44,571 nt of DNA from an uncultured Sunxiuqinia sp. GTDB lineage: Bacteria; Bacteroidota; Bacteroidia; Bacteroidales; Prolixibacteraceae. The stretch lies in the NCBI RefSeq assembly GCF_947495665.1, contig NZ_CANLZV010000022.1, positions 1 to 44,571 of the forward strand, read 5' to 3'. Below, one piece after another: positions 39,907 through 44,571 of the stretch. Both the position numbers and the translations under genes were made by a program. How positions within the stretch are numbered: position 1 is the first letter of the stretch; each line of letters opens with the position of its first letter. Under the pieces are notes generated by a model that saw only the letters and a list, made by a program, of their open reading frames with translations, was not told where the DNA came from and made no database searches.

Positions 39907-40032
39907 ATTTCGGTCCGATCCGCCACTATTTCCATGCAGTCCGACACAATTTCGATGCAATCCGCCATGATTTCGGTCCAGTCCGATGATATTTCCGTCC
40001 GATCCGCAAGCATTTCGGAACAATCTGCAGCA
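39907..40032. repeat. Tandem array of six degenerate 21-bp units
   Basis: Units begin with ATTTC at 39907, 39928, 39949, 39970, 39991 and 40012, exactly 21 bases apart, with a variable middle and conserved TCCG. A weak seventh unit may follow to about 40050. Read on the minus strand the frame is open and gives heptads such as ADRTEIV, SDCMEIV and SDWTEIM; the plus strand is also open. No start or gene context convinces me that a protein is made, so it is listed as a repeat. Confidence 0.9.
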
Positions 40033-40138
40033 AATGCGCTCCAATGAGCCGTTCTTTCGTGGCCATCCTACTGCTTCCCACCCGTGCCAGCCGAAGATGA
40101 CTTTTATCGAATCATCAAGCCTAAACACCCCTGTTGAC

Positions 40139-41589: not shown

Positions 41590-41896
41590 TTAAAGAAATG
41601 GCAAAGGAGACATAAACTTGGCCAGTTGAACAGGCGAAATTGCCCGAGGGAATACTGAGAACCCGATTGTTCGATCAATTACAAACCGAAAGATCCTGAA
41701 ATATGCAATTGAAACAGTTTAATGAACACAACCAACTCTGTCAGTTCTTTAAATCGTGAATAAAATGGGTTTTCTTAGGCTCATGTTTTGTGAAGTTTTG
41801 TAAATTGAAGGAGAAACGATTAAGCTGTAATACCCGAACACAAGGATACGAAGCAGTACGATTCCCAATTGCTGATTTCGATTGGGAGGATGCTTA

Positions 41897-42037: not shown

Positions 42038-43384
42038 ATGATAAAGCTTAATGCATTTCCTAATGAATATCAACGATCGGTTTATGAGAACACCAGGCAT
42101 TTCAGGCTATTGTTCTATGCGCTGTTAATAGGGCTTATTGTAGGACTGGTTGGTTCCATTTTTAGAATTACACTTAGCTATATTGAAGGTTTCAGGATTA
42201 CCTTATTTGAACATGCAGGCAACGCGGGATTTATAAGTTGGCTATGGCCTGTTTTGTTTGCAATTGCTGGAATAAGTATTGCCTTATTTCTGGTTCGGAA
42301 ATTTGCACCTGAAGCAGCAGGAAGTGGCGTTCAGGAAATAGAGGGGGCCTTAGACGGGATACGTCCCATGCGTTGGAAAAGAGTAATACCAATAAAATTT
42401 ATTGCTTCGTTATTTTCCTTGGGCAGTGGCTTGTTGTTGGGGCGCGAAGGGCCGACGGTTCAGTTGGGTGCCAATATTGGTAAAATGGTTAAAGACACTT
42501 TGGGGCAATCAGATATTGAAAATAACCCATTGGTTTCAGCTGGTGCTGCAGCAGGGCTTGCCAGTGCTTTTAATGCACCTTTTGCGGGTATTATTTTTGT
42601 TATTGAAGAAATGCACGGCCATTTTAAGTTTAATTTTTATTCAGTAGCGGCGATTATGATTGGAGCGGGAACAGCCGATTTTATTGTTCGCGTCATGGTT
42701 GAATCTAAGCCCATTATACAAATGATGGTTTTTCCTAGTCCGGACCTTTTGGGATTATGGCTATTTATAATTCTGGGTTTATTATGTAGTGTTATCGGCT
42801 ACCTCTATAATAAGCTTCTTATTTTATCGTTGGATTTTTTTCAATTCGCCCTTAAAATGCCAGTAATTTATACCGGAGTTTTTGTAGGATTAGTCATCGC
42901 CTTAATCGGTATCTTTTCCGCCGATATGATCGGTGGCGGGTACGAAACAATTACCAAAGTCCTCGATAATTCATTTCCTTTATCTTTCCTGTTGTTTCTA
43001 TTTGTTGCAAGAATGTTATTATCCTTTTTTAGCTATAGTCCCGGAGTACCCGGAGGCATTTTTTTACCCGTGCTTACACTTGGCGTTATTTTAGGAGTCG
43101 TGTTCGGAATAATCATGCAAAACTATTTTCCCAATTTAATTGCTCATCCGGGTGTTTTTGCGATTGCCGGTATGGCAGGCATTTTTGCAGCAACTGTTAG
43201 AGCACCCCTTACAGGATTAGTGCTGGCTGTTGAAATGACGTCAAACTATGAATTGATTTTACCATTAATAATTGCTACAGTTACCGCCTCTGTATTTACA
43301 ACCCTTTTTGGAAATAAGCCAATTTACACAACCCTTTTAGAGCGTACATTGGTAAAGAGCAAGCAGGAAGAACAAGTAGAATAA
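42038..43384 (+). CDS. clcA: ClC family chloride/proton antiporter
   Basis: The 448-residue membrane protein has the ClC selectivity motifs: GSGVQE at 95-100, GREGP at 135-139 with gating Glu137 (Glu148 in E. coli ClcA), and GVPGGIFLP. IIFVIEEMHGHF holds Glu190-Glu191, where Glu191 matches the proton glutamate Glu203, so antiport rather than a channel is likely. KPIYTTLLERT carries the equivalent of Tyr445. There is no CBS domain. Codon use looks more AT-rich than upstream genes, hinting at separate origin. Acid resistance or ion balance is the expected role. Confidence 0.94.
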   Translation: MIKLNAFPNEYQRSVYENTRHFRLLFYALLIGLIVGLVGSIFRITLSYIEGFRITLFEHAGNAGFISWLWPVLFAIAGISIALFLVRKFAPEAAGSGVQEIEGALDGIRPMRWKRVIPIKFIASLFSLGSGLLLGREGPTVQLGANIGKMVKDTLGQSDIENNPLVSAGAAAGLASAFNAPFAGIIFVIEEMHGHFKFNFYSVAAIMIGAGTADFIVRVMVESKPIIQMMVFPSPDLLGLWLFIILGLLCSVIGYLYNKLLILSLDFFQFALKMPVIYTGVFVGLVIALIGIFSADMIGGGYETITKVLDNSFPLSFLLFLFVARMLLSFFSYSPGVPGGIFLPVLTLGVILGVVFGIIMQNYFPNLIAHPGVFAIAGMAGIFAATVRAPLTGLVLAVEMTSNYELILPLIIATVTASVFTTLFGNKPIYTTLLERTLVKSKQEEQVE

Positions 43385-43653: not shown

Positions 43654-43895
43654 TAAGGTTTATTGGCTTCCTACTTTAACCTTTCTCCTTGATTCTTTAA
43701 CCTTTCAATTAATAATTGATTGTCAGATTTTTGGATGCTCAGATAGTCAGATTGTGCGTGCGTTCTTGAGTTCGTGCCTTCGTACCTTCCTGAGTTCGTG
43801 ACCTCGTGCTTGATTCTTACCCCATCCGTCCCGGTTCCCTGGACATCTTCCCTTCGAGAATGGAAGGAAATCCAACCACTAGCGCATGGTTCAAT
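43654..43895. repeat. Tandem duplication, copy 1 (242 bp)
   Basis: This copy and copy 2 (43901-44134) are nearly identical, with roughly ten substitutions and one gap of exactly 8 bases. Each holds, in order, a TTAACCTTTC-rich part, CAATTAATAATTG, octamer-like TCAGAT/GGATGCTC repeats, a GAGTTCGTG tract and a double hairpin. Copy starts are 247 bases apart. Confidence 0.92.
43821..43871. repeat. Double-hairpin element, copy 1
   Basis: Hairpin A is an imperfect GTCC...GGAC palindrome (43828-43844); hairpin B is CTTCC...GGAAG with the loop CTTCGAGAAT. The layout resembles palindromic repeats dispersed in Bacteroidota genomes. Confidence 0.65.
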
Positions 43896-43900
43896 GAGAA

Positions 43901-44134
43901 TAAGGTTTATTGGCTTCCTCCTTTAACCTTTCTCCTTGATTCTTTAACCTTTCAATTAATAATTGATTGTCAGATTTTCGGATGCTCGGATACTCAGATT
44001 GTGCGTGCGTTCTTGAGTTCGTGCCTTCCTGAGTTCGTGACCTCGTGCTTGATTCTTAACCCATCCGTCCCGGTTACCGGGACACCTTCCCTTCGAGAAT
44101 GGAAGGAAATCCAACCACTTGCGCATGGTTCAAT
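43901..44134. repeat. Tandem duplication, copy 2 (234 bp)
   Basis: This copy lacks one 8-base unit (CGTACCTT) present in copy 1 within the GAGTTCGTG tract. A degenerate beginning of a third copy (AAACCTTATTAGCTTC) follows at about 44141. Confidence 0.92.
44060..44110. repeat. Double-hairpin element, copy 2
   Basis: Hairpin A is perfect here: GTCCCGGTTACCGGGAC (44067-44083), 8-bp arms around one T. Hairpin B is the same CTTCC...GGAAG stem as in copy 1. Confidence 0.7.
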
Positions 44135-44175
44135 TTTCTTAAACCTTATTAGCTTCTTTGTTGCTGATTTTGACC

Positions 44176-44225
44176 ACCCCGTCCCCGACAAGTCGTGGAC
44201 ACCCCTCCTTGACAGGCGGGGAAAT
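44176..44225. repeat. Double-hairpin element, divergent copy 3
   Basis: The same plan recurs with changed bases: GTCCCCGACAAGTCGTGGAC as hairpin A and CCCCTCC...GGCGGGG as hairpin B, followed by the AAAT seen in the other copies. Paired changes in both arms suggest that the structure, not the sequence, is kept. Confidence 0.6.
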
Positions 44226-44350
44226 GGGCCTGAGCCAGACAATCGACTTTTGGCTACAGCGAAAGGTGCTTTTTTCGTTCCTGAGTTCGTACGTTCGTGC
44301 CTTCGCCTTCTCCCTTCTGCCTGTCTCCTTTGCTCCCTTTTTGGTAACCC

Positions 44351-44571
44351 GACTGCAGTTCCCATTTTGGTGACTTGTTGCACGTTTTTGCCGACTGCAG
44401 TTTGTTTGGAGGTAACTCGAGTCATGCGGGAACTGACTTCAGTCAGCTTGGAGCTAACTCTTCGCATCTTTTTACCGACTGCAGTCACCTTTTGGATGAA
44501 TTGAGTCAGGTCAGAACCGACTGCAGTCACCCCGAAGGTAAGTCGAGTCAGGTCGGAACCGACTGCAGTCA
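44351..44571. repeat. Tandem array of 21-bp units, cut by the window edge
   Basis: An anchor of the form GACTGCAGT or close variants (AACTCGAGT, GACTTCAGT, GAATTGAGT) falls at 44351, 44372, 44393, 44414, 44435, 44456, 44477, 44498, 44519, 44540 and 44561, always 21 bases apart with no slip. The minus-strand frame is open across the whole array to the edge and gives heptads like LTEVSSR, MTRVTSK and VTAVGKK. The array probably continues beyond the window. Confidence 0.93.

Follow-up and report, generated by a model that had tools for sequence, protein, structure and literature searches.

A degenerate 21-bp array at a Sunxiuqinia contig end and a class of symmetric, probably non-coding arrays adjoining an orphan gene family in Bacteroidota

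Introduction

Plasmid iterons and the parR/parC systems are built of near-identical units, come with a recognisable Rep or partition protein and occur mostly on plasmids. The arrays described here resemble such iteron- or centromere-like arrays in that a small gene adjoins tandem sites spaced by whole helical turns. However, the gene family involved had no Rep or partition match and was absent from the plasmid collection.

The nearest published element that we found, as far as the available text of its report goes, is BrickBuilt, a MITE with a 23-nt minisatellite in Porphyromonas gingivalis (PMC4596501). According to that text, BrickBuilt shares with the present arrays its occurrence in Bacteroidales, the intergenic and multi-copy state, the leader beside an imperfect tandem array, the dyad symmetry, the predicted stem-loops, the expansion and contraction by whole units and the frequent in-frame stops. 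However, BrickBuilt has a period of 23 and a single 23-nt consensus, whereas the period here is 21 and the units within one genome are unrelated; it has IS5-type terminal repeats, which were not found here in 12 loci; and the text available mentions no partner gene, whereas the arrays here adjoin a gene family. The MITE464/PgRS elements of P. gingivalis, with 41-nt tandem repeats, are similar as intergenic tandem arrays of about four helical turns; they differ in their reported terminal inverted repeats, and a partner gene is again not mentioned in the same available text (PMC4596501). The TAACTGA heptamer repeats of Beggiatoaceae, Cyanobacteria and five Bacteroidetes are also mostly intergenic short direct repeats and occur in some Bacteroidetes, but the accessible account describes exact 7-mers, most of which, in the genome chiefly studied, lie shortly before start codons (PMC4679880). 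BrickBuilt apart, neither the arrays nor the gene-array pair was described in the accessible texts that our literature search covered.

Array at the contig end

The window, which is the whole stretch of 44,571 nt that was analysed, represents the entire contig C22 of the genome of an uncultured Sunxiuqinia sp. (4.73 Mb, 70 contigs). Its relevant features are listed below.

39907..40038, plus strand: second 21-bp array of six ATTTCGGTCCGATCCGCCACT-like units, which are unrelated to those of the main array
42038..43384, plus strand: gene of 448 aa, with its 3' end facing the array tail, as in most intact copies
43726..44156, no strand: two copies of a 192-nt repeat (family D2, 81% identity), separated by 239 bp, in the interval from the upstream gene to the array
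43997..44569, minus strand: 191-codon frame, open through to the edge, spanning the array and the neighbouring repeats; judged non-coding
44349..44571, minus strand: degenerate 21-bp array of 10.6 units with ACTGCAGT- and ACTCGAGT-type dyad cores, ending at the contig end

The 21-bp array in the window is real. The original prediction of an exact 21-bp spacing without indels was confirmed by lag tests and by TRF: the spacing was exactly 21 bp from ~44349 to the final base 44571 (10.6 units), and the TRF rows on the array showed 0% indels. The lag-21 identity was 0.470 (shuffle mean 0.249, sd 0.032, z 6.9) and the lag-42 identity 0.641 (z 11.9). Neither value was attained in 2000 dinucleotide shuffles, in which the maximum over lags 14–63 was 0.404. 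The 42-bp super-period, which the original prediction did not contain, was thus stronger than the 21-bp period. The array had also been described as running off the edge, and this edge turned out to be the right end of contig C22, where the array is truncated. Compared with its copy on C12 (L009), the array was 95.5% identical over 221 bp, ungapped.

The product of the flanking 448-aa gene, a putative ClC chloride channel judging from a motif, had no match at E 1e-60 in the six other genomes of the genus. The second array in the window had a lag-21 identity of 0.658, and its dyad score was reached by 83 of 200 permutations, which is not significant. It was located between two convergent genes, ~100 bp behind a stem with a T run after it.

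Coding potential

The minus-strand frame encoding T-x-V heptads was indeed open for 191 codons (43997–44569) and continued off the edge; on its other side it ran into the adjoining repeats, the two copies of the 192-nt repeat, as had been noted before. The view that this heptad frame is under selection did not survive comparison of paralogous arrays. Summed over eight array pairs, which are not independent, the changes at first, second and third codon positions numbered 65, 64 and 67; 60 of 194 (31%) were synonymous against a random expectation of 26–29%, so that neither third-position nor synonymous change was in excess. Between the window and the C12 copy there were 4, 3 and 3 changes by codon position, and three of the ten were synonymous. 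The same frame was open in L009, L011 and L012, but the paralog L010 carried a stop codon inside it. Stops in all six frames were observed in 8 of 26 arrays of like architecture (extents set by hand) and in 37 of 58 arrays beside the orphan family of ~155 residues described below. Some other lineages have super-periods of 43 and 44/22 bp, which are not multiples of a codon and also contradict a heptad frame. No clear start was seen when L011 and L012 were scanned by eye; in the window, the start side falls beyond the contig end.

A heptad-repeat protein on the minus strand, for which the open frames of the window and of L009, L011 and L012 speak, is therefore extremely improbable: the codon positions changed evenly, with no purifying selection on the frame, L010 interrupts it and other arrays are stopped in all six frames, and coding heptads were rejected. 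The frame is open because the repeat unit has no stops in that frame, and the stretch is most likely non-coding DNA rather than a repetitive protein. For annotators, this is a warning that open frames across such arrays need not encode proteins.

Array class, leader and palindrome

A search of parts of the genome for other 21-bp arrays, as the original prediction had proposed, detected several intergenic ones. In the stretches fetched, degenerate 21-bp arrays were found between genes on C1, C2, C4, C7, C12, C14, C15 and C20, and a 400-kb sample of the genome contained 21-bp arrays at C1:310.5k and C1:481.5k and a 22-bp array at C3:61.8k. Many of these arrays have units unrelated to those of the others. 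Paralogs of the window array were located on C12, C14, C2 and C11, and one was found in the congener G006.

Many arrays share a leader that ends in GGGGGTACYTCSGARGTACCCCC and is mostly preceded by TATTTAACA. The leader sequence matched 14 places in the genome, some of them partially. The intact relatives of the window array run into the palindrome GGGGGTACYTCSGARGTACCCCC, which comprises ACYTC-N-GARGT within a GGGGG/CCCCC stem at the array start. Being intergenic and multi-copy, with a leader and a tandem array, the class has a MITE-like anatomy. Of the 140 genomes of the window's family, 19 matched a sequence model of the palindrome; in the order sample, 4 of 393 did so at 1e-5, among them the Sunxiuqinia genome itself. 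Lag 21, 41 or 42 was among the top five in all 40 palindrome loci among the matches listed; L107, L114 and L124 reached a lag identity of just 0.49–0.50. In the 38 palindrome loci tallied for orientation, which are not independent, a gene 5' end lay opposite the palindrome side in 26 of 35 cases, and a 3' end opposite the array tail in 26 of 34.

Like the window array, its C12 copy ends at a contig end, just short of the palindrome, and GGGGGTACYTCSGARGTACCCCC would therefore be expected just past the right end of the window. Copies of the leader or array were at or near the ends of contigs C2, C4, C5, C12, C14, C16, C22 and C33, which suggests that the assembly breaks at this repeat class.

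The sequence of the arrays turned over much faster than their flanks. The orphan proteins at L012:2787-3251 and L084:1945-2412 are 94% identical, and the two loci share 152 bp of leader at 93%. The best ungapped identity between their arrays over at least 150 bp was 0.48, i.e., the arrays are unrelated, and both kept the period and the dyads despite this divergence. Copies differed by whole units (L012 compared with L011 and L092, by inspection), and at L098:1793-2464 a block of 168 bp (8 × 21) occurred four times, starting at 1793, 1961, 2129 and 2297. The alignment of L009 and L010 had nine gap columns, which nearly cancelled and were confined to the tail and to a stretch where the units are dissimilar.

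Period and dyad symmetry

The TRF set comprised 132 loci picked for an array or a family gene, with some places entered twice. Among the 188 best-per-place rows, the period was 21 in 70, 42 in 38 and 63 in 16, and periods of 20, 22 and 43 had four rows each. Rows of period 20–23 or 41–44 were free of indels in 79 of 124 cases, and in 49 of 81 at ≤80% match; the indel-free phase of the original prediction thus held for the window array and was weaker across the class. The TRF rows of the class had a mean match of 77.6% and a mean indel rate of 1.73%, with ~13 mismatches per indel. At L248, L254, L260, L261, L263 and L265, the super-period behind the orphan gene was 43 or 44 bp (~21.5 or 22 bp per half).

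For the dyad test, the columns of the unit were permuted, which retained the periodicity and destroyed the symmetry. Dyad symmetry was detected in 16 of 26 arrays (reached by ≤5 of 200 column permutations), and in the window array none of 200 permutations reached the observed value; the other 10, including the second array in the window, had no significant dyad. Across the phylum, 34 of 58 arrays beside the ~155-aa family were symmetric (<5 of 100 permutations) and 24 were not.

Relative to the palindrome axis, the dyad axes had phases of 10.5 and 0 (mod 21), with mean matches of 0.43 and 0.37 compared with 0.25 overall. This register test took 33 of the 38 palindrome loci; in the omitted ones (L095, L117, L119, L124, and L011) the palindrome or the array was weak or missing, or the locus was a near copy. 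The best dyad phase was 0 or 10.5 in 22 of the 33 loci, near copies included, and one base off in seven others. Axes at 10.5-bp steps are a matter of arithmetic, because they follow from a dyad combined with a 21-bp period; the informative part is the register with the palindrome and its persistence under sequence change. Phasing by the DNA helix, the other option of the original prediction, received indirect support from the 21-bp period and from the dyad axes in 10.5-bp register with the palindrome, which would be consistent with it.

Within units the symmetry was 0.513 and between units 0.493 (21 arrays, 26 loci having been named and five dropped for too few units), and the former was higher in 12 of 21. 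The consensus of an array is symmetric, and the units drift around it. Symmetric mismatches of the types G.T and A.C numbered 222 and 207 in 26 arrays, and 201 and 195 as well as 227 and 211 in two other counts. As G.T was about as frequent as A.C, the symmetry looks like that of DNA and not of folded RNA.

Orphan gene families beside the arrays

Ten of the 38 palindrome loci shared a neighbour protein of ~154–160 aa, with the 3' end of its gene toward the element. Eight of these genes were at the array tail and two (L173 and L175) at the palindrome side. The copy in L114 carries an internal stop, and that in L101 is a fragment. This protein family was carried by 51 of the 140 genomes that belong to the window's family, by 39 of 393 in the order sample, with up to seven matches in one genome, and by 31 of 395 in the phylum sample.

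Among the matches listed, 70 of 96 distinct genes had an array (20–22 or 41–44 bp) within 800 bp downstream and 80 of 96 had one on either side, while 26 of 96 lacked a downstream array at the threshold used; the count covers 89 loci, with the best matches listed first and one of 97 genes set aside for its short flank. By single search, 41 of 59 and 20 of 29 of the loci listed had a downstream array of 20–22 or 41–44 bp. Such an array accompanied only 17 of 505 control genes (random genes from three genomes: 5/251, 4/121, and 8/133). An upstream array was present at 14 of 92 genes among the matches listed, several of which were tandem gene pairs. Both copies of the family in the Sunxiuqinia genome have a downstream array. 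The array began at a median of 56.5 bp past the stop codon (58 arrays), and a strict terminator-like stem was between gene and array in 14 of the 58 loci. The motif ACYTCNGARGT was within 800 bp downstream of 21 of 96 family genes among the matches listed (background 0.008 per 900 bp), and outside the taxonomic class of the Sunxiuqinia genome it was also found at L244 and L245, in the same phylum only. The family gene was not found within the window, and the window array would be a solo copy of this array class.

An alignment (A4) was made of 41 of the 58 proteins of the family; two others had internal stops, and the rest were near copies or partial. Single members matched nothing in NCBIfam or the PDB sequences and nothing convincing in Pfam. 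As a family, A4 had only weak Pfam matches (at most three members, best E 0.0026) and likewise weak NCBIfam ones; its best PDB sequence match (E 0.015) was a designed protein, and PADLOC gave three single-member matches (E 0.014–0.027). No convincing Pfam or NCBIfam match supported a Rep-like or ParB/ParR-like identity. None of the 41 members matched PHROGs, no record of the family was present in the plasmid or phage collections, and none was found in viral contigs with narrower patterns. No known anti-phage or phage system could accordingly be assigned to the partner protein by PADLOC, PHROGs or the phage records. The libraries searched offer no curated model, structure or function for the family, which nevertheless has a conserved DNA partner.

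Counting the ~155-aa family, four orphan families in the Sunxiuqinia genome have adjacent arrays; three of the four were first spotted through these arrays. In the 228-aa family, each of the three intact copies in this genome (L279, L280, and L281, on C1, C1, and C15) had a 21- or 42-bp array directly after the stop codon. The similarity of this family to the NCBIfam model PQLLE was distant (22.7 and 28 bits against a cut-off of 80). Both copies seen of the 248-aa family were accompanied by an array, downstream at L021 and upstream at L137, and elsewhere the array was upstream in five of six relatives. Further copies found by protein search (L280 and L281) or in a sampled stretch (L137) all had arrays (3/3); the gene fragments L282 and L283 had none. 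Profile comparison with hhalign showed no convincing relation among three of the four families, and searching viral contigs for three of the families gave no lead. At L137:1542-1992, two unrelated 21-bp arrays occurred in succession upstream of the 248-aa family gene. At L149:18114-18755, a 213-aa orphan protein was followed by a 42/21-bp array, the units of which resembled, by inspection, those of the solo array L088.

Evolution and possible role of the arrays

To explain these observations, we give even chances to a cis-acting, non-coding array of phased symmetric protein-binding sites, of which the window would hold a solo copy. Dyad sites every 21 bp, i.e., two turns of B-DNA, would all lie on one face of the helix, where dimers of a protein could assemble side by side; intact arrays start at a strong palindrome in 10.5-bp register. 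The lack of coding selection, the period, the dyads of most arrays, the register and the link to the gene family are observations, whereas a bound protein, its identity and its role are inferred. The candidate binder is the neighbouring orphan protein or a partner common to all arrays, and the most likely role would be to maintain or regulate the locus through a local nucleoprotein assembly. With fast sequence turnover and with spacing and symmetry kept, a binder would recognise spacing and symmetry more than any fixed sequence. The divergent arrays beside proteins of 94% identity argue against ordinary sequence-specific binding by that protein.

The chief difficulty is the fast turnover beside nearly identical proteins, which would fit a binder that reads spacing and symmetry but also the lack of any recognition. 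The latter would be a neutral or selfish minisatellite similar to BrickBuilt, in which whole units are gained and lost by slippage or recombination, symmetry is maintained via template switching at quasi-palindromes, and the host derives no function. This is the main rival and, on balance, rather unlikely. Copies that differ by whole units or multiples of them, such as the fourfold 168-bp block in L098, are as it would have them, as are the 14 leader matches, some partial, in one genome and the ~13 mismatches per indel, which may be near neutral. It accounts poorly for a period of 21 that is retained over wide distances, for arrays that stay by one gene family (70/96 of the matches listed) and for dyad axes that keep register with the palindrome despite sequence change. 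Arrays without dyads, indels across the class, the absence of a family gene beside the window array, the 26 of 96 genes without an array among the matches listed and a within-unit symmetry barely above the between-unit one all count against the binding-array reading.

Two further explanations concern mobility and transcription. Palindromic arrays could mark the ends of mobile cassettes as attC-like recombination sites, with solo arrays as leftovers, which would suit four orphan families with adjacent arrays in one genome (the three compared seem unrelated) and a patchy distribution (31/395 genomes) with up to seven matches per genome. We regard this as quite improbable: terminal inverted repeats were not above apparent chance in 12 loci, the main family was not in the plasmid and phage collections, and the arrays are long and variable, unlike attC, which are single sites. 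A transcribed structured RNA, such as a 3' UTR hairpin array, a sponge or an antisense RNA, is less probable still and very doubtful. It would draw on the orientation of tail and palindrome toward gene 3' (26/34) and 5' ends (26/35) and on the 10-bp hairpin into which the palindrome folds, where both partners of one pair differ in 3 of 13 sequences. The symmetry, however, shows no G-U preference, Rfam had no match at the gathering threshold for ten sources including the window, and a strict terminator-like stem already separates gene and array in 14 of 58 loci; an RNA hairpin array was therefore rejected for its lack of G-U bias and of an Rfam match.

By inspection, a CRISPR-like array was set aside, there being no constant repeat with unique spacers, and so was a type III toxin-antitoxin system, as the array is downstream and a toxin match is absent. 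A MITE with terminal repeats was unsupported: inverted flank matches were at most 15 bp with mismatches and differed in each of 12 loci, one of which (L100) had no inverted match in its flanks.

Returning to the binding-array reading, arrays adjoining a large uncharacterised family across Bacteroidota hint at an undescribed system of gene plus DNA site. More specifically, and only tentatively, the orphan family and the downstream 21-bp dyad array may form an undescribed two-part system of Bacteroidota, in which the protein would assemble on the phased symmetric array, the sequence would be free or driven to vary and solo arrays would respond in trans. The pairing of gene and array gives a direct handle on the function of the orphan protein, and the arrays offer a natural case in which spacing and symmetry of DNA sites outlast sequence.

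Other repeats

Intergenic repeats with 16- and 24-bp lags (TTCGTGCC and TGAGTTCG), in the window those at 43726-44156, adjoined several arrays. A period-7 array (CAGTTAT-like) was found at L133:14912-15138, with lags from 14 to 49 visible. In the window at ~41790-41830, TTTTGTGAAGTTTTGTAAATT resembled by eye the reversed leader, and no array adjoined it.
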